Under the pieces are notes generated by a model. That model was not told where the DNA came from, ran no database searches, and saw only the letters and a program-made list of their open reading frames with translations. From a virus, in the IMG/VR virus record IMGVR_UViG_3300042549_003579, positions 1-25,266 of that record: a stretch of DNA of 25,266 bases. One strand, written 5' to 3'. Within the stretch, counting starts at the first letter, position 1. Every line of letters starts with the position of its first letter. Below are positions 6,266 through 16,928 of the stretch, in pieces. Both the position numbers and the translations under genes were made by a program.

Positions 6266-6838
6266 ATGTCAGTTCCGTATTTTGAAGACAGCTTTTCACA
6301 GCCGGCTTCACCAAGCAAATTCCGTCCAGCCGACTACCAGGGCAACCTGATTCTCGTCTGGCCTACCGAGTACCGCACCGGCATCAAGACTGACTACGGA
6401 GACAGCGACGCAGTCGCAGCCCGCGTAGTTGTCCTAGACGGCCCTGCAGGTGTTGAGGAGCACGACAACGTTCTCTTCTTCCAAGGTGCTCTCATCTCCA
6501 CCCTTAAGCCAAGCGTAGGCACCAACAAGCCTGTACTAGGTCGTCTAGGTCGTGGAACCTCCAAGCCGGGACAGTCAGCCCCGTTCATCCTCACCCCATT
6601 CACTGAGGCGGATGCACAGACTGCACGTGAGTACTTCGCTAGCCAGTTCGGTGGAACTAGCGCAGCACCTGCACCTGCCCCTGCTGCACCTAACGCAGAC
6701 CCGCTCGCAGCATTCCCAGCCGACAAGGTTGAACTTGCTAAGAGCCTCGCTGCATCGTCAGTGCCATCAGACCAGATTGCTCTAGCAACCGGTCTACCTA
6801 AGGCTCTAATCGATTCGGCTATCAACAACCTGATTTAG
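6266..6838 (+). CDS. Putative single-stranded-DNA-binding-like protein
   Basis: 190 residues from ATG 6266, with AAGGAG at 6248-6253. Residues 1-125 read as a beta-rich domain (YQGNLILVWPTEYRTGIKTD, ARVVVLDGPAGVEEHDNVLF, then a G-rich GRLGRGTSKPGQSAPFILTP). A Ala/Pro linker at about 130-145 follows, then a small helical domain (146-190, with VPSDQIALATGLPKALIDSA). Actinophages often carry a protein of this kind between the RecB-like nuclease and the primase. An OB-fold ssDNA-binding role is inferred from that position and layout, not from a definitive motif. There is no classical acidic SSB tail. A terminator-like hairpin follows, so this gene ends the operon begun upstream. Confidence 0.55.
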   Translation: MSVPYFEDSFSQPASPSKFRPADYQGNLILVWPTEYRTGIKTDYGDSDAVAARVVVLDGPAGVEEHDNVLFFQGALISTLKPSVGTNKPVLGRLGRGTSKPGQSAPFILTPFTEADAQTAREYFASQFGGTSAAPAPAPAAPNADPLAAFPADKVELAKSLAASSVPSDQIALATGLPKALIDSAINNLI

Positions 6839-6839
6839 G

Positions 6840-6848
6840 TGCTAAACT
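6840..6848 (+). promoter_or_regulatory. Candidate extended -10 element upstream of primase
   Basis: TGCTAAACT: a TGC extension followed by TAAACT (T-A-x-A-x-T). The expected start of transcription, about seven bases past the hexamer, is the first base of the 6855-6889 hairpin. No good -35 is visible. It resembles TGCTACACT at 17827 and TGCTATAAT at 23884. Confidence 0.3.
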
Positions 6849-6854
6849 GGTGTC

Positions 6855-6889
6855 GTCCCCGAGAGTTTGTCTCCTTTCCTCTCGGGGAC
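6855..6889 (+). terminator. Hairpin between ssDNA-binding candidate and primase
   Basis: Perfect 11-bp inverted repeat GTCCCCGAGAG (6855-6865) / CTCTCGGGGAC (6879-6889) with a 13-base pyrimidine-rich loop. Only a weak T stretch follows. The loop contains CTCCTT (6871-6876), the exact complement of the primase ribosome site AAGGAG at 6900-6905, so a translational role is possible as well as termination. Confidence 0.6.
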
Positions 6890-6910
6890 TTCACTATCTA
6901 AGGAGTAATA

Positions 6911-9406
6911 ATGGAAACCCAAAAACCGATTCTTGAACTGTTCACGAGGCTCGGTAAGCAAGAGACCGACAAGGTCACTGTCTGCTACTTCGGTCCTAAG
7001 AACGCTTGGACCTCTAAAAGCCTCCCGCTATCTAACGCGGATATTTTTGCCCAAACGCTAACCGCTAACGGCATGAACGTTTACACGATGGTCAACTCTG
7101 TAGACGATTCAACAATCACCTCAAGCAACACACGCGGCGACGTAAACGACATAACCCGCCTCAACGCACTATGGGCCGACCTTGACTACAAGGACAACGG
7201 CATCAACAGCGAAGAGAACGCAATGAACGTTATCGAAGCAATCTCCGACATTATTGGTGTACGTCCTTGCGCTATCGTCCACTCAGGTCACGGCCTGCAA
7301 CCCTATTGGGCTGTAGAAGACGGCGAAATCAACGACATGAACCGTTCGCACATTGCCGGCGTGTCACGTCGTTTTGGTCAGCTAATTCAGCGTGTTGCCG
7401 AAATGTTTGGCGGTAAAGTAGATAACGTATCAGACTTACCTCGTGTACTGCGAGCGCCTGGCACAGTTAACCACAAAGACCCCGACAACCCTGTACAGGT
7501 AAAGGTAGAATTCAATGACTTCACCTACCCCCTCGAACTCTCGCAAGTCATCGACGCTCTGGAATCGCACGGTTTTATTTCAGACAACACGACTGTGGCT
7601 GAGTTTGTTACTGTATCTCCACCTGAAGAATGGCGAGTCGCTAGCGAGAACTGTGCTTGGACTGCACAACTTATTGACACCATTGACAAAGCGAAACCCA
7701 AAGCACGTCACCCGTGGCTGGTTGCGATGGCGATTAAACTTTACTCGTCTGTACGTTACGGATGCTTCACAGAAGAAGGATACGCCGAAGCCGCCCGACT
7801 TCTAGAAGCCAAATTCCTATCTATGCTGCTTGACGGTGAGAAACGCACACCGAACCCTGGCGAAGTCCAGACAGCATTCAAATGGGCTAAACAAATGGTT
7901 GCCACCTATCCTGAAAGCAAACTCGCTTCAGAAGTCCGCAACCACGTACATAAACTGCACCTATCAGCAGTTCCAGACCTCCCAAAAGAACAAGGCTCCG
8001 GGCAGACAACTACCGACGGAAACTTGGCCTTATCCCCTAACCTTGCACCCATTTCTCTGCCGATGGACGCATTCAAATATACAGATGTAGCAAACAGCGA
8101 ACGCCTAGCAGACTATGCAAAAGGCAAGTATGTGTTTGTTCCCGAACTTGGCTGGTACCGCTGGGAGAACAGTGCCTACGTACTAGACAATGCGAGAAGC
8201 ATTGAGCGACTTGCAGCCGAGTCGGCGCTCGCCTTTGGAGCAGCAGACGGTTCAAAGGCGGGCCTCGACTGGGCTAAACGTTCCCTATCACGCTCATCCA
8301 TCTCCGCCGCAGTAGGCTTGGCACAGACAGTGCCAGACATTATCTGCGAATCACACAAACTAGACGCTAACCCTCTAGACTTGTGCACGCCAAATGGAAT
8401 TGTTAACCTTGAGACAGGTTCACTTCGTGACGCTGACCCGTTGGAAGACTTCAATACGATGCAAACGAACTGTGCGCCTGCTGTACAGGCAACACCGCTG
8501 TGGGATAACTTCCTAAAGCTAATCATCACCGACCAGGAACGCATCGACTACATCCAGCAACTGCTTGGTATTGCGTTGATTGGTGAAGTGCGTTGGCACG
8601 TCCTACCCGTATTCGTGGGTGTAGGTGCTAACGGTAAATCAACCCTGCTAGAAATCGCATCGAAAGTATTAGGAACCTATGCAAGAACAATGCCAGAGAA
8701 CTTCCTGCTTGACACTAACTCACAGCAGCATGCAACCGAAATCGCAAACCTGCGAGGTGTGCGGTTCGCTGTTGCGTCAGAAACCCGCCCAGACGGTAAG
8801 TTCAACGAGTCACGAATCAAAATGCTCACCGGTGGAGACACCATCTCCGCACGAAAAATGTACAAAGACTTCTTCGACTTCAAGCCGAGTCACACACTTT
8901 TTCTCGCAGTTAATCACCTCCCGGCGGTTCGGTCAGGAGGTAGTGGATTCTGGCGTCGGCTACGAAAAATCGACTTCAGTTACCAAGTGCCAGAAGGATT
9001 GCAGCGCCAAGGTTTAGCGCAAGAAGTGTTCGAGAAAGAGGGCCCTGGTGTTCTTGCTTGGATGATTGAGGGCGCACGTAAAGTACTCACCGAGGGTCTA
9101 CAAGAACCGAACTCTGTCAACCTTGCCACTCGCGAATACCAGTTCGAAGAAGACCACATCTCCAAGTTCATCGAAGACTGCATCGCTCAGAACGTGAACG
9201 GTACAGTAACCTCGGAAGACTTGCAGAACGCATACCGCAACTGGTGTTCGCAGAATGGTGAGAACGGCCTAGCCATGACACCGTTCATTCGTGAACTGCG
9301 TATGCGCATCCCGATGTCTCCAACTCGTGGAGCGTACGGTCGCAGGGCGTATAATGGAATCTACTTATACAACGGCGACTTTAGGCACATGTACGAAGAT
9401 GACTAA
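6911..9406 (+). CDS. Bifunctional primase-polymerase / D5-family helicase
   Basis: 831 residues. N-terminal RepB/PrimPol-type primase: catalytic D90-L-D92 in ALWADLDYKD, SGHGLQPYW (125-133), and RVLRAPGTVNHK (178-189), matching the three conserved motifs of archaeo-eukaryotic-type primases. A linker leads to a D5/P4-type superfamily 3 helicase with Walker A GVGANGKST (570-578), a following MLTGGDTISARKMY segment and an arginine-rich GFWRRLRKIDF. Such fusions lay primers and unwind DNA at the phage fork. Start ATG 6911 follows AAGGAG. This is the central replication enzyme in the window; no DNA polymerase gene is seen, so replication would rely on one outside the window or on the host. It overlaps the HNH gene by 8 bases. 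Confidence 0.9.
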   Translation: METQKPILELFTRLGKQETDKVTVCYFGPKNAWTSKSLPLSNADIFAQTLTANGMNVYTMVNSVDDSTITSSNTRGDVNDITRLNALWADLDYKDNGINSEENAMNVIEAISDIIGVRPCAIVHSGHGLQPYWAVEDGEINDMNRSHIAGVSRRFGQLIQRVAEMFGGKVDNVSDLPRVLRAPGTVNHKDPDNPVQVKVEFNDFTYPLELSQVIDALESHGFISDNTTVAEFVTVSPPEEWRVASENCAWTAQLIDTIDKAKPKARHPWLVAMAIKLYSSVRYGCFTEEGYAEAARLLEAKFLSMLLDGEKRTPNPGEVQTAFKWAKQMVATYPESKLASEVRNHVHKLHLSAVPDLPKEQGSGQTTTDGNLALSPNLAPISLPMDAFKYTDVANSERLADYAKGKYVFVPELGWYRWENSAYVLDNARSIERLAAESALAFGAADGSKAGLDWAKRSLSRSSISAAVGLAQTVPDIICESHKLDANPLDLCTPNGIVNLETGSLRDADPLEDFNTMQTNCAPAVQATPLWDNFLKLIITDQERIDYIQQLLGIALIGEVRWHVLPVFVGVGANGKSTLLEIASKVLGTYARTMPENFLLDTNSQQHATEIANLRGVRFAVASETRPDGKFNESRIKMLTGGDTISARKMYKDFFDFKPSHTLFLAVNHLPAVRSGGSGFWRRLRKIDFSYQVPEGLQRQGLAQEVFEKEGPGVLAWMIEGARKVLTEGLQEPNSVNLATREYQFEEDHISKFIEDCIAQNVNGTVTSEDLQNAYRNWCSQNGENGLAMTPFIRELRMRIPMSPTRGAYGRRAYNGIYLYNGDFRHMYEDD

Positions 9407-10043
9407 CGAGGACTTTTGCCTTGCATGCAAGGCTAGCTTTCATGATGAATGCCAAAGCTTATGGGATGAGACCCTCGCAGACGACATTGAATGTTGCTGC
9501 GAGGGGGCATTCTCATTCGAAGGCCGCTCCCCTAAACCTTCCAGTGAAGAGGGCGACAAGCCTGACCTTGAAGCATACTTCGAAGGCTATACAGGTTCTA
9601 AAGCGTTAGAAGACTATGCCGACCCGCTATCTACAGGCCGTAAAGAGGCTGTAAAGAAGTATCCAATTAAAGCCGGCATGGTTTGTGAATGGGCTTGGCT
9701 ACAGAACGCTGGGGGTGGTGTAGTCCCCATCATTGGCTGCCCAGGTCACCCAGCCGAAGCCGTACACCACGGACCTGACAAAAACACTATGTGCAACATT
9801 GACGGCAATGTTCACCGTATTTGTGCTGAATGTCACAACCGTTGGCACGCAGTGAACGACCCGCACTACGGCGAGCGCCCTACGCTGGAAGATGGGCGTG
9901 TAGATGCGTCTGTACCGTTCCTACCTAAGGGTGAATGGCTGGCGCATGATGATAAGACTCTCGCCAAGGATGAGTTGATTCACGCTGAAGATAAGCGTCG
10001 TCGTGACGAGGCTCGCCGCCACGGCTCTATTCCGAAGGTGTAG
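9399..10043 (+). CDS. HNH endonuclease with N-terminal Cys-rich region
   Basis: 214 residues from ATG 9399 (8-base overlap with the primase); the longer frame from 9291 is primase shadow. The HNH/beta-beta-alpha-metal core is clear: H123-H124-G-P-D-K-N, then G-N137-V-H139-R-I-C142-x2-C145-H146-N-R-W-H150, with C96, C114, C142 and C145 as likely structural zinc ligands. H124, N137 and H146 or H150 would form the catalytic core. Residues 1-35 carry a separate Cys cluster (C7, C10, C18, C32-34). The C-terminus is a basic helix (EDKRRRDEARRH). Phage HNH enzymes near the terminase often assist DNA packaging; here the fibre cassette and resolvase lie between. Its 3' end overlaps the convergent minus-strand gene by 17 bases. 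Confidence 0.85.
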   Translation: MTNEDFCLACKASFHDECQSLWDETLADDIECCCEGAFSFEGRSPKPSSEEGDKPDLEAYFEGYTGSKALEDYADPLSTGRKEAVKKYPIKAGMVCEWAWLQNAGGGVVPIIGCPGHPAEAVHHGPDKNTMCNIDGNVHRICAECHNRWHAVNDPHYGERPTLEDGRVDASVPFLPKGEWLAHDDKTLAKDELIHAEDKRRRDEARRHGSIPKV

Positions 10044-10170
10044 CCTCTACCTTATTGGTGATTTCTTCCATGCACACGCCGCAGATGCAACGCTCGCCTG
10101 GGTCTTCAAATGGGATGCCAATGTTGGCGTTTCCGCAGCCTTTTGTTTCGCAAGTGAGAATAATTATCAT
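10027..10170 (-). CDS. Small Cys-rich protein downstream of fibre, minus strand
   Basis: ATG (complement of 10168-10170) shares a base with the fibre's TAA, giving a TAATG junction on the minus strand. The longer frame from 10218 runs inside the fibre. The 47-residue product begins MIIILTCETKGCGNANIG and has C7, C12, C28, C30 and C33, a zinc-ribbon-like arrangement ending GERCICGVCMEE. Translational coupling to the fibre suggests shared expression; a fibre assembly factor is a guess. Its 3' end is antisense to the last 17 bases of the HNH gene. Confidence 0.6.
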   Translation of the reverse strand: MIIILTCETKGCGNANIGIPFEDPGERCICGVCMEEITNKVEATPSE

Positions 10171-12326
10171 TAGCCTGATACCGCTCCTGAGGTCATTTGA
10201 ACTGCCATCCAGTTCCACGTGTATGTGGTTCCAGTAGCGTCCGATACGTTACGAACAATAAAAGTAAAACCAGTTGATGATACTGAGGTGACTGCTGCAA
10301 CATATCGTGGTGAGCTTGTGTTTGCGGTCACGGAAGGGGTTACAGAGAATCTGCTTGTTGGGAATGTTACAGTGGTTGCCGTTTCCTGGGTGTTGATTGC
10401 AAGCGCAGTACCTGCAGCAGTTGTTGTTCTGTTCGCTGCCATAGCAAACGGAACACCGTTAGAGCCCGCTACTGCTTTGTCATTTAGCTGGCTTTGGATA
10501 CCGCTAGTTACACCGTTAAGATAGCCAAGTTCAGTAGTGTCTATAGTTGTAGAGACAGCGATAGCACCTGCACCGTTAGAGATTAGAACACGGTTAACAG
10601 TGTAACCTTCAGCGAGGGCTTTAGCGTCAAGCGCAGTTTGGAGACCCGTAACGTTAGCGATTGTGTGAGTGTGGGTGCTAGATGCTTTACCATCCAACGC
10701 TGTTTGCAAACCTGTCGTGTCACCAATAATGTGAGTGTGCCCAGTAGCGGCCTTAGCGTTCAACTGTGTTTGGACGTTGCTTGTCACGCCATCAAGATAG
10801 TCAAGTTCAGTCGTCGATACCAGTGGCGAAACTACTACGTTGCCTGAAGCGTCAGAAATCAGCACGCGGCTGGCAGTATAGCCGCTGTTGTTAGCTTTAG
10901 CATCAATCTGTGTTTGAATGTTGCTAGTCACACCGTTAAGGTATCCAAGTTCGGTTGTGTCGATAGTTGTAGAGACACCAATAGCGCCTGCACCGTTCGA
11001 TACGATTACTCGGTTGGCTGTGTAGCCCTCCGCGAGCGCTTTAGCATCGAGCGCGGTTTGTAACCCTGTAACGTCAGAGATAGCGTGAGTGTGTGTTGTT
11101 GAGGCTTTACCTGCAAGCGCAGTATCCAGTCCAGTTACTTCGCTAGTGATGTGGGTGTGTGACAAGCTGGCTTTACCCGCAAGGGCTGTGTCTAAGCCTG
11201 TCACGTCGCTTGTAACGTGAGTGTGGCCCGTGTCTGACTTGTTGCCTAACTGTGTCTGAATGTTACTTGTGACACCGTTAAGGTATCCAAGTTCGGTGGT
11301 GTCGATGGTTGTTGACGCTGTGATAGCGCCTGCACCGTTAGACACCAAGACGCGGTTAACGGTGTAGCCTTCAGCGAGCGCTTTAGCATCAAGTTCGGTT
11401 TGTAGGCCTGTAACGTCAGCGATAGCGTGAGTGTGTCCTACTGGTGAATAAACGCCGGTGTGCAAATGCCCAGTGTCAGATTTGCCGCTAAGCAACGTAG
11501 TGATTTCGGTTTCGGTATAGTAACGGTCATCGTGCGTGTGACCAGTGTTTGACTTGCCAGAAAGTAACGTGTCCGCTTCGGTCTCAGTGTAGTAACGGTC
11601 ATCATGCGTGTGGCCTACAGCAGAAATACCCGCCTCAGAAAGCGTCTTATTCTCCCACAAGTTGCTAGAGGTGCGTTGAATAACCTCACCAGCCGCAACC
11701 GACGTAATAAGCACGTCGTGAATCTCGTTAAGTTCGAAACCGTTTTGTGGCTTGATGAAAATCTCACCATTGTTGCTATTAGCGCGTGTAACAACACCGA
11801 TAAACACTAGGTGCGCAGGGGCTACAGGTTTGCTAGCCAAGCCATAAATAAGGTTGCCATCAGTACCCAACCAAACAGCATCACCAGCAGTAGCCGTAGA
11901 CGTGTTCAAGCCGGCAAGCAAACCCTCAGTAACAACGTTAACTTTAGCGTTCGTAGCACCGCCAGCCTCCAACAAACCCATCGTCTTCGACGAAGTAGCC
12001 TCAGAAGCGTTCGACGCTTTAGAAACAATCATGTTCGTGCCATCAGCCGACGACACATAAACAGCCTGCCCCTTCGCGATAGCAGCACCAAGTTTCACCT
12101 CATGCTTAACCGTCGACGTATATTCCGCCGCACCGCCACCAATGTCTGGTAGATTAAGCAAACTGTTGTAATCAATCTTGTTAGAATCTTTACCGTCGTG
12201 AACATGAGAACCAGGAGATGCCTGGAACGGCAACGGACCTAGAGTATGATGAATGGCAACAGTAGACGAATCAGTGTCCGCACTCAAATGCGATACAATA
12301 GATTCTTGATTATTCTCGGCAGCCAT
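10170..12326 (-). CDS. Repetitive tail fibre with HxH motifs
   Basis: 718 residues, one of only two minus-strand genes. The N-terminus (1-200) carries HHTLGPLPFQ and GSHVHDGKDS segments typical of phage fibres. Residues 235-615 are repetitive: four roughly 45-residue copies (near 316-360, 430-474, 479-522, 570-614) with a TTELGYLNGVTSNIQTQL core, alternating with short DVTGLxTALxxKA units. Ten His-x-His motifs occur (starting at 41, 239, 263, 287, 298, 368, 390, 412, 530, 552). In T4 gp37, HxH motifs of a trimeric needle coordinate iron; the same use is inferred here. The C-terminal about 100 residues (FPTSRFSVTPSV ... SSTGFTFIVRNV ... TYTWNWMAVQM) look like a beta-sandwich, lectin-like receptor-binding tip. 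No clear ribosome site precedes the ATG. Confidence 0.85.
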   Translation of the reverse strand: MAAENNQESIVSHLSADTDSSTVAIHHTLGPLPFQASPGSHVHDGKDSNKIDYNSLLNLPDIGGGAAEYTSTVKHEVKLGAAIAKGQAVYVSSADGTNMIVSKASNASEATSSKTMGLLEAGGATNAKVNVVTEGLLAGLNTSTATAGDAVWLGTDGNLIYGLASKPVAPAHLVFIGVVTRANSNNGEIFIKPQNGFELNEIHDVLITSVAAGEVIQRTSSNLWENKTLSEAGISAVGHTHDDRYYTETEADTLLSGKSNTGHTHDDRYYTETEITTLLSGKSDTGHLHTGVYSPVGHTHAIADVTGLQTELDAKALAEGYTVNRVLVSNGAGAITASTTIDTTELGYLNGVTSNIQTQLGNKSDTGHTHVTSDVTGLDTALAGKASLSHTHITSEVTGLDTALAGKASTTHTHAISDVTGLQTALDAKALAEGYTANRVIVSNGAGAIGVSTTIDTTELGYLNGVTSNIQTQIDAKANNSGYTASRVLISDASGNVVVSPLVSTTELDYLDGVTSNVQTQLNAKAATGHTHIIGDTTGLQTALDGKASSTHTHTIANVTGLQTALDAKALAEGYTVNRVLISNGAGAIAVSTTIDTTELGYLNGVTSGIQSQLNDKAVAGSNGVPFAMAANRTTTAAGTALAINTQETATTVTFPTSRFSVTPSVTANTSSPRYVAAVTSVSSTGFTFIVRNVSDATGTTYTWNWMAVQMTSGAVSG
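10485..11381 (-). repeat. Four-copy internal repeat region of the fibre gene
   Basis: Copies at about 11247-11381, 10905-11039, 10761-10892 and 10485-10619 encode the 45-residue unit with NGAGAI and TTELGYLNGVTS cores. The copy at 10761-10892 is the most diverged (DYLDGVTS, SDASGNV). Amino acids are far better conserved than third codon positions, though short identical runs remain, such as ACACCGTTAAGGTATCCAAG at two copies. This indicates older duplication kept by selection rather than recent slippage. Confidence 0.8.
12294..12299 (+). promoter_or_regulatory. Candidate -10 for the packaging/structural operon
   Basis: TACAAT (five of six consensus bases) lies 55 bases before the resolvase-like gene, inside the 5' end of the opposing fibre gene. 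No good -35 is seen. A plus-strand promoter has to lie in or near here because only 28 bases separate the divergent genes, but this particular hexamer is only a candidate. Confidence 0.25.
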
Positions 12327-12354: not shown

Positions 12355-12798
12355 ATGAGCAAAGCTAAACAAATCGGCACGCGCGCCGAAACAGCAGTCA
12401 AAAACGCGCTACTAGCAGCAGGATACACGCCACTAGAAGCACACCGGAACGTGCTGAAAGGGTCACAAGACGAAGGCGACGTGTGGCTACGCTCCACCAA
12501 ACACGGCCTCATAATCTTCGAAGTCAAAGGCGGCGAATCCGCCAAGAAAGCATCCCATGAACAAACCAAAAAATGGTTCCAAGAAGCAGTCACCGAAAAA
12601 GGACACGCCCAAGCCACCTACGGATTCCTTGTCACCCAACGAGCGGGAGTTGGCTATCCTCGTGCAGGCGAGTGGTGGGCTTACGCAAGCCTTAAAGACC
12701 TTGTTTACCTACAAACCCATGGGCTAGAGACGTACCACAAAAACGACCCAACCGTCCGCCTAACCCTCAACGAACTCCTAGAGATACTAAATGGCTAA
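12355..12798 (+). CDS. PD-(D/E)XK nuclease, Holliday-junction-resolvase-like
   Basis: 147 residues. The compact nuclease signature is present: E12 in GTRAETAV, a G-S-Q-D-E-G-D42-V-W strand, then E56-V-K58 in LIIFEVKGGES. This E...D...ExK arrangement with an early glutamate is the pattern of Hjc-type resolvases and related phage endonucleases, which cut branched DNA. ATG 12355 has AAAGGA six bases upstream. It is the first gene of the rightward late block and overlaps the terminase by 8 bases, consistent with clearing branched replication intermediates before packaging. Exact substrate not shown by sequence; a structure-specific or restriction-like nuclease is the alternative. Confidence 0.8.
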   Translation: MSKAKQIGTRAETAVKNALLAAGYTPLEAHRNVLKGSQDEGDVWLRSTKHGLIIFEVKGGESAKKASHEQTKKWFQEAVTEKGHAQATYGFLVTQRAGVGYPRAGEWWAYASLKDLVYLQTHGLETYHKNDPTVRLTLNELLEILNG

Positions 12799-14305
12799 CC
12801 GCAAACTACTAAACCCTACCGAGACACTGTTCAACATGAGTGAACAGATACGTACCGCAGCAATCCGCCCCAACCTGAACAGGTACAAACCACATGCAAA
12901 ACAGATTGAGTTCGCTGCAGACCAGCACAAACACCGCCTCTACGTGGGAGGAAACCGTTCAGGAAAAACCGTTGCAGGCGTCATTGAAGATATTCGATAT
13001 CTCAAAGGCGAACACCCTTTCAGAAAAGTACCAGAATCCCCAATACGCGGGCGTGTGGTCGGCGTTGACTTCGCTAGCGGTATCGACAAAATCCTCCTCC
13101 CCCAATTCCAACAATGGGTACCAAAAAGCCTCCTAATCAACGGCTCATGGGACGACTCGTACAGTAAAGAGCGCCGCGTCCTAACCCTATCCAACGGCTC
13201 ATTCGTAGAGTTCATGTCCTACGACCAGGACCTACAAAAGTTCGCTGGAACCTCCAGACACTTCGTACACTTTGACGAGGAGCCACCAGAACTCGTCTAT
13301 GACGAATGCCGTGCACGTCTCGTAGACACCAACGGAGACTGGTGGATGACACTCACGCCCGTTGAAGGTATGGAATACATCTACGAACAGGTCTACATCC
13401 CAGGTAAAGAAGGGCATGAACTGTTCGGCGTAGTCGAAGTAGAAATGTCCGACAACCCATACCTGGACAAAAAAGCCATTGAAGACTATCTATCCTCGCT
13501 AACGCCAGAACAACGTGCCATCCGTGAAAAAGGCCAGTTCATTCAGGTAGGTGGAGCCGTATTTAAAAGCTTTAACCAACTCACCCACACCATCCCATCA
13601 GAAGAGTTCAAACTCACACGCAAACACCGCATCTATGTGAGCATCGACTACGGCTGGCGAGACCCTACAGCCATCCTTTGGCATGCTGTAGCCCCAGACG
13701 GTACCATCACAACATTCGCAGAACACTACAAGTCACAAATGACTATCGCGGAACACGCCGAAGTGTTCAAGTCAATCAACCGCGAATGGGGTGTACAACC
13801 ATACCTAACCGTAGGTGACCCTGCCCTGGCACAAACCAGCGGTGTACGAGGCACCTCCTATCAGCAAGAGTTCAACCTGCACGACATGAACGTCGTAATC
13901 GATATCATTCCAAAACAAATCGGTATCGGTCTGAACAAAATGCAGCAATACATGAAAGTGAACCCTAAAACAGGCAAACCATTCTGGCAAATCACCGACA
14001 ACTGCCCCAACCTTATTAGTGAACTATCCAAACTCAAGTTCAAACGCCGCGCATCCCGCCAAATGGAAATGACGTTGAACAAACTTGAAGAGATTCAAGA
14101 CAGAAACAACCACGCATTTGACTCGGCACGCTATTTCTTTACGCTAATGGACGACCTCGCCCCTGACGTAATCAGCGGGGAACGCCAAATGTACCTAGAG
14201 TTTGGTGATACACTTGATGCTGTACAACAAGACACCAGAAGAGACCCCGGAACTTCGTCTTGGAAGTTCAAAGACATATCAGAAGATACCGTAGGATGGG
14301 AATAA
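12791..14305 (+). CDS. terL: Terminase large subunit
   Basis: 504 residues, the packaging motor ATPase plus nuclease. ATPase: Walker A GGNRSGKT (53-60) and Walker B with catalytic glutamate in HFVHFDEEPPE (159-167). Nuclease (RNase H fold): D286 in VSIDYGWRDPT, D343 in TVGDPAL, and D444 in NHAFDSARYFF, the three metal-binding aspartates in order. Length and motif order fit the phage large terminase family. No separate small terminase is recognised upstream; the resolvase-like gene overlaps its start by 8 bases. TAATG coupling to the next gene. Confidence 0.95.
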   Translation: MANRKLLNPTETLFNMSEQIRTAAIRPNLNRYKPHAKQIEFAADQHKHRLYVGGNRSGKTVAGVIEDIRYLKGEHPFRKVPESPIRGRVVGVDFASGIDKILLPQFQQWVPKSLLINGSWDDSYSKERRVLTLSNGSFVEFMSYDQDLQKFAGTSRHFVHFDEEPPELVYDECRARLVDTNGDWWMTLTPVEGMEYIYEQVYIPGKEGHELFGVVEVEMSDNPYLDKKAIEDYLSSLTPEQRAIREKGQFIQVGGAVFKSFNQLTHTIPSEEFKLTRKHRIYVSIDYGWRDPTAILWHAVAPDGTITTFAEHYKSQMTIAEHAEVFKSINREWGVQPYLTVGDPALAQTSGVRGTSYQQEFNLHDMNVVIDIIPKQIGIGLNKMQQYMKVNPKTGKPFWQITDNCPNLISELSKLKFKRRASRQMEMTLNKLEEIQDRNNHAFDSARYFFTLMDDLAPDVISGERQMYLEFGDTLDAVQQDTRRDPGTSSWKFKDISEDTVGWE

Positions 14306-14832
14306 TGGCTAAAAAGTTTAACATCGTAGAACGAGCACCGTTCCAACCATTCACGTGCCTGCTGTGCAAGATGCACCCCACTCACGAAAACCCTGCCCTA
14401 GACCTCGATAAACAAATCGACTACTTTGGTATGGTTTACCTATGCTCATACTGCATCGCAAACGTTGCAGACCACATGGGCTACATGCACCCTAAAGAAG
14501 CCGCCGCTGCACGTGAAGAGCTAGCGTCGCTTCGGGAAAAAATTGGCAGAATCCCTGCCGTTACTGAAAGGCTAGTAAATGACATCCGAGACCTCTCTAT
14601 CGCTGCTTCTGCTGATTTGCTTGCTGAGCCTGCCCCTGTCGTTTTGGTTAATGACACGGAGCCTGAATCAAGCAACCAAGGGCCTAATCTCGACTACTTT
14701 GGAACAAGCGAACCTGCTGAATCAAGCAGTGAACCTGTTAGCGACGAAGGACCCACTAGCGTTTCAGCAAGTGCTAGCAGCGTCGGGAAACCTAAGACCA
14801 CCCCAAGAAACCGCACCGCTAGTAACGGATAA
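14305..14832 (+). CDS. Zinc-ribbon protein with disordered tail
   Basis: 175 residues from ATG 14305, sharing a base with the terminase stop; the longer frame from 14260 is terminase shadow. C18-L-L-C21 and C47-S-Y-C50 make a zinc ribbon (CxxC-x25-CxxC). A charged Ala/Glu helix follows (about 64-92, PKEAAAAREELASLREKIG), then a low-complexity Ser/Glu/Pro/Ala tail. Residues 92-175, precisely the helix end and low-complexity part, are also read in another frame by the gene at 14579. Its place between terminase and portal suggests a packaging or portal-assembly accessory, but no family is recognised. Confidence 0.75.
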   Translation: MAKKFNIVERAPFQPFTCLLCKMHPTHENPALDLDKQIDYFGMVYLCSYCIANVADHMGYMHPKEAAAAREELASLREKIGRIPAVTERLVNDIRDLSIAASADLLAEPAPVVLVNDTEPESSNQGPNLDYFGTSEPAESSSEPVSDEGPTSVSASASSVGKPKTTPRNRTASNG

Positions 14833-14902
14833 CTACGTAGAGGTAGATGACGATAATGAGTATGACTTCGACGCCGTCAGGGCAGAATACGGCATTAAGT
14901 AA
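14579..14902 (+). CDS. Overprinted small membrane protein with conserved-looking tail
   Basis: 107 residues in the +1 frame relative to the zinc-ribbon gene, overlapping it by 254 bases and the portal gene by 56. ATG 14579 has GAAAGG at 14566-14571, seven bases away. The product has a hydrophobic segment (residues 7-25, LSLLLLICLLSLPLSFWLM), a helix (STTLEQANLLNQAVNLLATK), the motif ATKDPLAFQQV and an acidic end (YVEVDDDNEYDFDAVRAEYG). The TM plus [S/T]KDPLAFQ layout matches small membrane proteins I recall in actinophages near the terminase or portal. The part not dual-coded (14833-14846) continues smoothly. I judge it a real gene. Role unknown: membrane association during packaging, or holin-like, are possibilities. 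Confidence 0.6.
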   Translation: MTSETSLSLLLLICLLSLPLSFWLMTRSLNQATKGLISTTLEQANLLNQAVNLLATKDPLAFQQVLAASGNLRPPQETAPLVTDNYVEVDDDNEYDFDAVRAEYGIK

Positions 14903-16928
14903 CGAAGAGAAGCTTGACTTCGAAGAAAGGCCAATGATTGAACTCAACGGCCTGCTCGATGACACGCAACTAAAAGCGTTACAGCAAGACAAGAAGGGTA
15001 AAACCCTTGTCGATTATGTCCGTAAGGAATACCAGAAGTCGAAAGATGCTAAAAACTGGCGTGTACGCCAGTGGTACATCAACATGTCATTTGAACGTGG
15101 CAAGCAGTATGTTGCTTGGGACTCAACTAAGAGCCAACTAGCACAGTTGCCACGTGGCGACAAGAACGTTCCACGCATTATCATCAACCGTGTACGCCCA
15201 ATCGTGCGCACCGAAATCGCTAAACTCACCTCGCAGAAACCTACCGCAGTAGCATTGCCAGCATCGAACGACGTTGAAGACGTGTTCGCTGCAACAGCCG
15301 CGGGACAGATTTGGGATAGCCTATATGACCGGCTACACGTTGGAAGAGAAATGCGCATGGTCGCTCGTGACCTATCAGTGCTTGGCGTGGGCTATCTCAA
15401 ATCTTACTGGCACGCAGGGGCATACGACCCTTGGAGCGAAGAAGAAGGCGACATCTGCATCGAGCACGTGTCACCATTCAACATTTTTGTACCAGACCTG
15501 TCAATCGTTGACCACAACAAGCAGCCATACGTTCTACACGTGTACACGAAGCCCCTTGAATGGGTGAAGATGACGTACGGCGACCTAATCCCGAAAGACA
15601 TGCAACCAACCGTTGTAGCGTCAACCGAGATTGCCGACATCTCGTCAGCCCTAGACATCCGCGAAAACAACAGCAAGCCAGACGCCTGTCTAGTAATCGA
15701 AGCATGGATTAAGCCAGGAACCACTAACCTTCTGCCTAAGGGTGGCCTCATCACCATCGTTGACGAAGTCATCGTAGAAGCGTCACTAGACGGCTTCCCT
15801 GCAGGTTACAAAGACTACCCAATCGTCAAGTTTGACCACATCCCCGCAGGACAGTACTACTCAGCCTGCGTGATTGACGACATCATCCCGCTACAGCGTG
15901 AAATCAACCGTACCCGTTCACAGCGTATCCAAGCAAAGAACATGATGGCTAAGCCACAGGTTTACTACCGTGAAGGTTCGCTAACCGTATCGAAGATTAA
16001 CACCAGCCCAGGACAGTACATCGGTGTACGCCCAGGATTTGACTACCCAATGTCTGCCCCAATGCCTCAACTACCACCATACGTGGCAGAAGAACTCCAA
16101 GCATTGAACATGGACTTGGAAGACATTTCAGGTCAGCACCAGGTATCGAAGGGTTCAACCCCTCCAGGTGTCGAAGCAGCAACCGCTATCGCCTACCTGC
16201 AGGAACGTGACGACTCATACCTTGCCCCAACCTTCGCGTCAATCGAAGAAGGCTTGTCAACCATTGCACGTATCGCACTGTCACTCGCTGCCGAATACTG
16301 GACCGGCGAGCGTACCGTAAAGATTACAGGCTCAAACAACGGCTACTCTGCCGAACTGTTCAAGGGTTCAGACATCAGCCGCGGCACCGACATCCGTATC
16401 GAATCAGGCTCAGCACTGCCAACAAGCAAGGCTGCAAAGCAAGCACTCGTTATGGACATGATGCGTCTAGGAATGATTCCACCAGAAGACGGCCTAGAAC
16501 TGCTAGACATTGCAACCATTCAACGCTACACAGACAACAAGGGCACCCGCCCAGACGAGCTACGTGCACAGCGTGAAAACATCATGGTCAAAAACCTTGG
16601 TGACATGGATGTTATGCAGCACTACCAGCAGTGGCAGATGGGAATCGAGCAGGGTAACCCTGCAATGGTTAACCCTGACACTGGTGTACCTCTTGAGCCG
16701 CCAGCCGTTATCCCAGTCAACAAGTGGGACAACCACGCTGTACACATTCAAGAGCACGACAACTTCCGCAAGAGCCCAGCATATGATATGCTTACTCTTA
16801 CGCAGAAGGCCGAGTTCAACAAGCACATCAACATGCATGAACAGGCTCTCGCAAACCTAATGATGCAACAGCAACAAATGGGTATGCAACCCCAGCCAGA
16901 CCAGGCTGGGCAACCACCACAGCAATAG
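14847..16928 (+). CDS. Portal protein (P22-type)
   Basis: 693 residues. N-terminal YVRKEYQKSKDAKNWRVRQW and WDSTKSQLAQLP, then VPRIIINRVRPIVRTEIAKL, the pattern of P22-family portals, which form the dodecameric DNA-entry ring. A central region with DIIPLQREINRTRSQRIQAK and DISGQHQVSKGSTPPGVEAA is also portal-typical. The C-terminus ends in a Gln/Met/Pro-rich stretch (LMMQQQQMGMQPQPDQAGQ). Length favours a podovirus-type portal with barrel extension. Starts ATG 14847, 14856 and 14862 are all in frame; GAGG at 14840-14843 is close to the first and 12 bases from the second, so the start is uncertain by three to five residues. Confidence 0.9.
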   Translation: MTIMSMTSTPSGQNTALSNEEKLDFEERPMIELNGLLDDTQLKALQQDKKGKTLVDYVRKEYQKSKDAKNWRVRQWYINMSFERGKQYVAWDSTKSQLAQLPRGDKNVPRIIINRVRPIVRTEIAKLTSQKPTAVALPASNDVEDVFAATAAGQIWDSLYDRLHVGREMRMVARDLSVLGVGYLKSYWHAGAYDPWSEEEGDICIEHVSPFNIFVPDLSIVDHNKQPYVLHVYTKPLEWVKMTYGDLIPKDMQPTVVASTEIADISSALDIRENNSKPDACLVIEAWIKPGTTNLLPKGGLITIVDEVIVEASLDGFPAGYKDYPIVKFDHIPAGQYYSACVIDDIIPLQREINRTRSQRIQAKNMMAKPQVYYREGSLTVSKINTSPGQYIGVRPGFDYPMSAPMPQLPPYVAEELQALNMDLEDISGQHQVSKGSTPPGVEAATAIAYLQERDDSYLAPTFASIEEGLSTIARIALSLAAEYWTGERTVKITGSNNGYSAELFKGSDISRGTDIRIESGSALPTSKAAKQALVMDMMRLGMIPPEDGLELLDIATIQRYTDNKGTRPDELRAQRENIMVKNLGDMDVMQHYQQWQMGIEQGNPAMVNPDTGVPLEPPAVIPVNKWDNHAVHIQEHDNFRKSPAYDMLTLTQKAEFNKHINMHEQALANLMMQQQQMGMQPQPDQAGQPPQQ

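Follow-up and report, generated by a model that had tools for sequence, protein, structure and literature searches.

A putative membrane-protein gene, conserved out of frame across the end of a zinc-finger-like gene and directly before the portal gene of phages

The Rz and Rz1 genes of phage lambda are a case of same-strand overlapping phage genes. In lambda, as in the locus described here, the second gene starts inside the first and one stretch of DNA is read in two frames. Rz and Rz1, however, are lysis spanins, whereas the present overlap lies in the head-packaging block and shows selection that is mostly one-sided. With respect to membranes and head assembly, the closest described system is that of phage T4, the portal of which assembles on the inner membrane, helped by gp40 (PMC9958956; PMC4493910). 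Like gp40 (114 residues), the protein predicted from our locus (107 residues) is small and membrane-associated and has an acidic segment, a functional likeness of the two being conjecture. Unlike it, gp40 has no obvious transmembrane helix and is encoded in a DNA-replication gene cluster, not beside the portal gene; comparison of our protein family with gp40 by hhalign gave a probability of 0.3%, that is, no detectable similarity. Closer in gene position is gp3 of Bacillus phage Pony (L187:2305-2730), which is encoded between terminase and portal and has an N-terminal transmembrane segment, a long helix and the sequence NPFEAQAMHAM before a short tail. Its gene, in contrast, does not overlap another gene along its length, and hhalign (probability 0.1%) gave no support for homology. 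Small helical ORFs occupy the same place in very remote portal relatives (Bacillus phage Pony, ctLwi270 and ctKpZ937). Our literature searches returned no description of this overlap or of membrane genes before the portal gene.

The stretch of DNA analysed here (the window) comprises all 25,266 nucleotides, positions 1 to 25,266, of the virus record IMGVR_UViG_3300042549_003579. On its plus strand, the gene for the terminase large subunit (12791..14305) is directly followed by that for a C4 zinc-finger-like protein of 175 residues (frame 1, 14305..14832; assigned from the ORF listing, an AlphaFold2 model and the family alignment), the terminase stop abutting the ATG of the zinc gene at 14305. 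Inside the zinc gene, in frame 2 (+1 relative to it), an ATG opens the ORF for the putative membrane protein (14579..14902, plus strand, 107 residues). It is preceded by the ribosome-binding site GAAAGG (14566..14571) at a spacing of 7 nt. The out-of-frame overlap of the two ORFs amounts to 254 nt (14579..14832), across which the third frame is full of stops. The initial annotation had given these coordinates, the length of the product, the extent of the overlap and the ribosome-binding site exactly. Downstream follow the genes for the portal (14847..16928, plus strand), a protein in scaffold position, the major capsid protein and the connector. Upstream, a gene for a RusA-like Holliday junction resolvase (12355-12798; phrog_244, E 1e-15) directly precedes the terminase gene and overlaps its start, and a tail-fibre-like gene, in which five stretches match phage tail repeats (PF12789), lies on the minus strand at 10170-12326, upstream of the packaging genes.

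The last 56 nt of the membrane ORF lie within the longest portal ORF, as initially annotated. That three genes share bases did not hold up: the overlaps are pairwise only, 254 nt with the zinc ORF and at most 56 nt with the portal ORF, and since no portal start is possible before 14847 and the zinc ORF stops at 14832, no base is common to all three. The portal start itself is uncertain, the earliest ATG being that at 14847 and another, at 14856, having a better-spaced ribosome-binding site. In the 56-nt stretch, second positions of the membrane-protein frame differ with a frequency of only 0.12. The frame is thus again well conserved there, and therefore the portal gene may in truth begin further downstream than its longest ORF suggests. 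Frameshifting from the zinc gene was considered as a way of reaching frame 2. It is disfavoured by the ATG and ribosome-binding site of the ORF itself and, in the window, by an in-frame TAA (14576..14578, plus strand) which abuts this ATG and excludes in-frame read-in from the 5' side.

Relatives of the membrane protein are plentiful in viral contigs. A scan of these contigs revealed 46 loci encoding a relative, with identities from 100% down to 29%, and an alignment-based scan revealed 52. To avoid circularity, an alignment of portal proteins was used as second query and the best 80 loci were kept. All portal-anchored loci examined that had enough upstream sequence contain the portal gene and, before it, a zinc-type ORF within which a transmembrane ORF begins in the +1 frame. 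Altogether, the layout of zinc ORF, membrane ORF and portal was found in 59 of 59 evaluable non-redundant loci, with overlaps of 98-332 nt, a count that pools loci from both searches and so is not wholly independent of the search with the membrane protein; two more loci are truncated at contig ends. A scan for prophages in genome_contigs found no relative. In ctEqG8 (L051:2676-2966), the ORF that overlaps the zinc gene out of frame in this position has no obvious transmembrane helix.

Among annotated records, the closest portal matches are the Arthrobacter phages Brad, Adat, GurgleFerb, Nellie, Casserole and Jasmine, Cellulosimicrobium phage DS1 and Microbacterium phage Shocker. When the membrane protein of the window or a distant relative was compared with phages by tblastn, no match was obtained because the known isolates are too divergent; it was the portal search that found them. 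All six Arthrobacter phages have an intact +1-frame ORF over the gene before the portal, in Adat at 6916-7374, and no CDS is annotated there. In Jasmine (KU160650.1, 7333-7429) the gene numbers skip from 13 to 15 exactly at the hidden ORF, as though an originally called gene 14 had been removed afterwards. The membrane ORF of DS1 starts inside QSJ04813.1 and is likewise unannotated. In Shocker the ORF extends from 8678 to 9028 and overlaps gene 18 by only 95 nt; as annotated, gene 19 starts only at 8777 and thus lacks the transmembrane helix. The link to actinobacterial hosts comes from these isolates.

Could frame 2 be open by chance or through codon bias, with no gene behind it? The one point in favour of this view is that the reference genomes carry no annotation for it, and we consider it practically dismissed. 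When the codons of the zinc frame were resampled synonymously, frame 2 stayed open in 1.8% of the trials for the window and in 0.4-29% for 12 divergent loci, unlike the real sequences, in which it is open in every evaluable locus. The substitution pattern also argues for a gene. Among 13 close relatives, positions 1, 2 and 3 of the zinc frame differ at frequencies of 0.40, 0.31 and 0.63 outside the overlap and of 0.37, 0.23 and 0.21 inside, the third position thereby falling from 63% to 21% of comparisons. Such a switch of phase is expected if frame 2 is constrained, because the third position of zinc-frame codons is the second position of those in the membrane-protein frame; two other clades show a weaker pattern in the same direction. 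In simulations on the portal tree in which changes were accepted separately for each frame, the best fit was obtained with omega at about 1.0 for the zinc frame and about 0.35 for the membrane-protein frame, values that are approximate given the coarse grid and uniform omegas. Constraint on frame 1 alone and constraint on neither frame both fitted poorly. Finally, 86% of 43 starts of the membrane ORF are preceded by at least four bases that match the ribosome-binding consensus, against 15% of random positions.

Taken with the 59 of 59 layouts and the conservation of frame 2 in all lineages examined, these patterns make it almost certain, as far as comparison of sequences can tell, that 14579-14902 is a real conserved protein-coding gene. 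Two long ORFs in different frames occupy the same bases both in the window and in all 59 relatives, and the embedded frame is under selection at the protein level. Reading of the overlap in two coding frames, as initially proposed, is thereby supported by phase switch, simulation and layout; no evaluable relative has a stop in frame 2, its homologues are abundant, and the constraint measured for each frame across relatives places frame 2 under selection.

Analysis by segment gave signs of constraint on both frames in the first 20 codons and mainly on frame 2 beyond. Within the overlap, the zinc frame has signs of constraint in these first ~20 codons and an omega of about 1 in the rest, though it is still open there, with the reservation that changes silent in both frames are few and constraint on frame 1 is the weakest part of the selection analysis. 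The first ~20 codons of the membrane gene (14579..14638, plus strand), encoding the C-terminal helix of the zinc protein together with the transmembrane helix, thus look dual-coding. Over most of the overlap, by these substitution patterns, the transmembrane protein is the constrained frame, whereas the zinc protein has in its Ser/Glu/Pro tail a nearly neutral passenger that reads through the membrane gene (14639..14832, plus strand). Frame 1 was itself open by chance in 2-44% of trials; since this is somewhat unlikely, the zinc tail may have some role. A sequence in this tail, EGPxSVPAS, was considered as a functional motif and rejected, as it is the frame-1 reading of KDPLAFQQ in the membrane protein.

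These data bear on which of the two frames is older. The initial annotation had described the layout as that of classic overprinting, by which the membrane gene would have originated de novo within the tail of a zinc-finger gene that predates it. For this it can be said that the membrane ORF starts inside the zinc ORF in every case, that no relative without any overlap of the two was found among the 59 evaluable loci, and that the transmembrane helix is covered by the core of the overlap. We nevertheless regard this order of events as rather unlikely: past ~20 codons the zinc tail is nearly neutral while the membrane-protein frame is constrained, and the length of the overlap varies from 95 to 332 nt between lineages. 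The shortest overlaps, of 95 and 98 nt (~32 codons), do not exceed the dual-coding core by much. Because the membrane-protein frame is constrained and the zinc tail nearly neutral, we see the tail, which is the less constrained and probably the younger sequence, as a read-through of later date into a membrane gene that was already there. In the simplest history, the two genes overlapped over a short stretch in the ancestor, and the overlap grew when the zinc stop codon moved downstream into the membrane gene. Loss of a stop codon is route a among three listed routes by which overlaps originate (PMC2268670). A de novo origin of the start of the membrane gene within the short core is possible.

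The zinc-finger partner is itself variable. In its AlphaFold2 model, helices extend to residue ~107 and are followed by the disordered Ser/Glu/Pro tail, the length of which varies between lineages. In the window, the ligands C18, C21, C47 and C50 are encoded within 14356-14454 on the plus strand. The zinc module, initially described as constrained, is not strictly so: in several lineages (L006, L008, L011, L012, L015; L043/L044; L137/L138/L144; Arthrobacter gp12/gp13; Shocker gp18) the four zinc-binding Cys residues are partly or wholly lost, and the ORF and its position are kept. Six of 29 members of the zinc-protein family match phrog_37518, a family of unknown function (best E 7.5e-7), while the zinc protein of the window itself does not do so significantly (E 0.15). 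One member matches the ClpX-type C4 zinc finger (PF06689) at an E of only 0.052. A fold search of the zinc protein against the PDB gave nothing significant, only weak zinc-finger matches. Some relatives (L048:1698-2108, L049:1907-2287, L093:2023-2691, L095:2035-2562) have an extra gene between terminase and zinc gene, coding for a GGPY-like motif and acidic or low-complexity sequence.

In the product of frame 2, an N-terminal transmembrane helix leads into a helical stalk, after which come the near-invariant motif LL(A/S)(S/T)KDPLAFQQ and an acidic tail. The relatives uphold all features that had been noted in the window at the outset: the helix, the KDPLAFQ motif, the acidic C-terminus, the separate ribosome-binding site and the position next to the portal gene. 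All 43 members analysed have a hydrophobic 19-mer scoring above 2.0 at the N-terminus; in the window, the transmembrane segment comprises residues 7-25 (14597..14653, plus strand). Lys and Arg residues number 0.05 on average before this segment and 2.3 in the 15 residues after it, and the last 40 residues are net acidic by 7. Because the positive charges follow the transmembrane segment, the positive-inside rule predicts a cytoplasmic C-terminus and a very short N-terminus outside. The AlphaFold2 model, for which two rows from annotated phage records were left out of the input alignment, has a helix at residues 2-57, a break at D58-P59, a second helix at 59-68 and a disordered tail (mean pLDDT 78). 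The break falls within the most conserved part of the protein, the KDPLAFQQ motif (residues 57-64; 14747..14770, plus strand). Searches with the protein and its family against Pfam, PHROGs, PDB and BFVD gave no meaningful match and no homologue of known function.

For the function of the protein, we tentatively favour, at somewhat less than even chances, a membrane anchor acting with the portal or the packaging machinery and so a role in head assembly. The reasons are the strict linkage to the portal gene, before which the membrane ORF always directly lies, the predicted cytoplasmic location of the conserved element, and the separate holin annotated in Jasmine; position beside the portal is in itself only a hint of function. 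Podophage ejection proteins are expected alongside the tail genes, and it is among these that DS1 (6593-11944) and Jasmine (gp28) have large unassigned ORFs. Our gene, in contrast, sits between terminase and portal, and a transmembrane protein of the virion would need to remain soluble before ejection. A virion or ejection component helping the podovirus genome to cross the inner membrane at infection is thus an unlikely identity, although the gene lies within the structural block, the transmembrane helix with its long helical stalk would suit it, and one carrier, Jasmine, is a podovirus (PMC5513430).

A small protein with a single transmembrane helix and a helical stalk might also serve in lysis, as holin, antiholin, spanin-like protein or regulator, and 2-3 of the 43 members have weak matches to Rz-like spanin profiles (best E 2.5e-4). 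These matches are few and probably reflect generic sequence of a transmembrane segment plus coil. An i-spanin of the Rz type has its N-terminus in and C-terminus out and belongs to a lysis cassette; here the positive charges follow the transmembrane segment, so that the C-terminus would be cytoplasmic, and the gene precedes the portal. Nor is the gene encoded with a lysis-cassette holin or in place of one, as Jasmine has endolysin and holin annotated separately, adjoining each other at the far end of the late block. The known hosts being Gram-positive also, we consider a lysis function improbable, the least so favoured of the functions discussed. Small phage membrane proteins often act on the infected cell, for example in superinfection exclusion or by recruiting a host membrane process. 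Nothing specific to our protein points in this direction. Accessory functions tend to be mobile and subject to loss, and for them a link to the portal as strict as that observed here among divergent lineages (portal identity 33-44%) is unusual; such a role appears distinctly unlikely, if less so than one in lysis.

If the protein does act in head assembly, it would reside in the inner membrane of the host, with its N-terminus, which is very short, on the outside, and expose to the cytoplasm its stalk, the helix-break-helix KDPLAFQQ element and the acidic tail. This element would bind the portal or the terminase, and assembly of portal and head, or packaging, would thereby take place at the inner membrane, much as in T4. 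The nested order of terminase, zinc protein, membrane protein and portal would keep their translation linked. In its full form, the proposal is that portal nucleation or DNA packaging is tied to the inner membrane in a large group of podophages, the isolated members of which infect Actinobacteria, by a head-assembly factor that is anchored in the membrane, has so far gone unrecognised and is the product of a hidden out-of-frame gene, with KDPLAFQQ as its docking site; we consider this plausible but less likely than not.

The examined records of Arthrobacter phages (Jasminevirus) and of the Cellulosimicrobium phage thus lack annotation of what is very probably a conserved gene of the head-packaging block, and the Shocker record has it without its transmembrane helix. 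An annotation practice that discourages long overlaps on the same strand is the likely reason why the gene was missed. The locus is a clean example of a reversal of roles: the gene that seems old, in the form of the zinc tail, would be the passenger and the hidden gene the constrained one. As carrier phages grow in culture, the membrane gene is open to a knockout that is silent in the zinc frame. Should its product prove to anchor the portal, the long-standing question why the heads of some phages are initiated on the membrane could be studied in culture with these phages.
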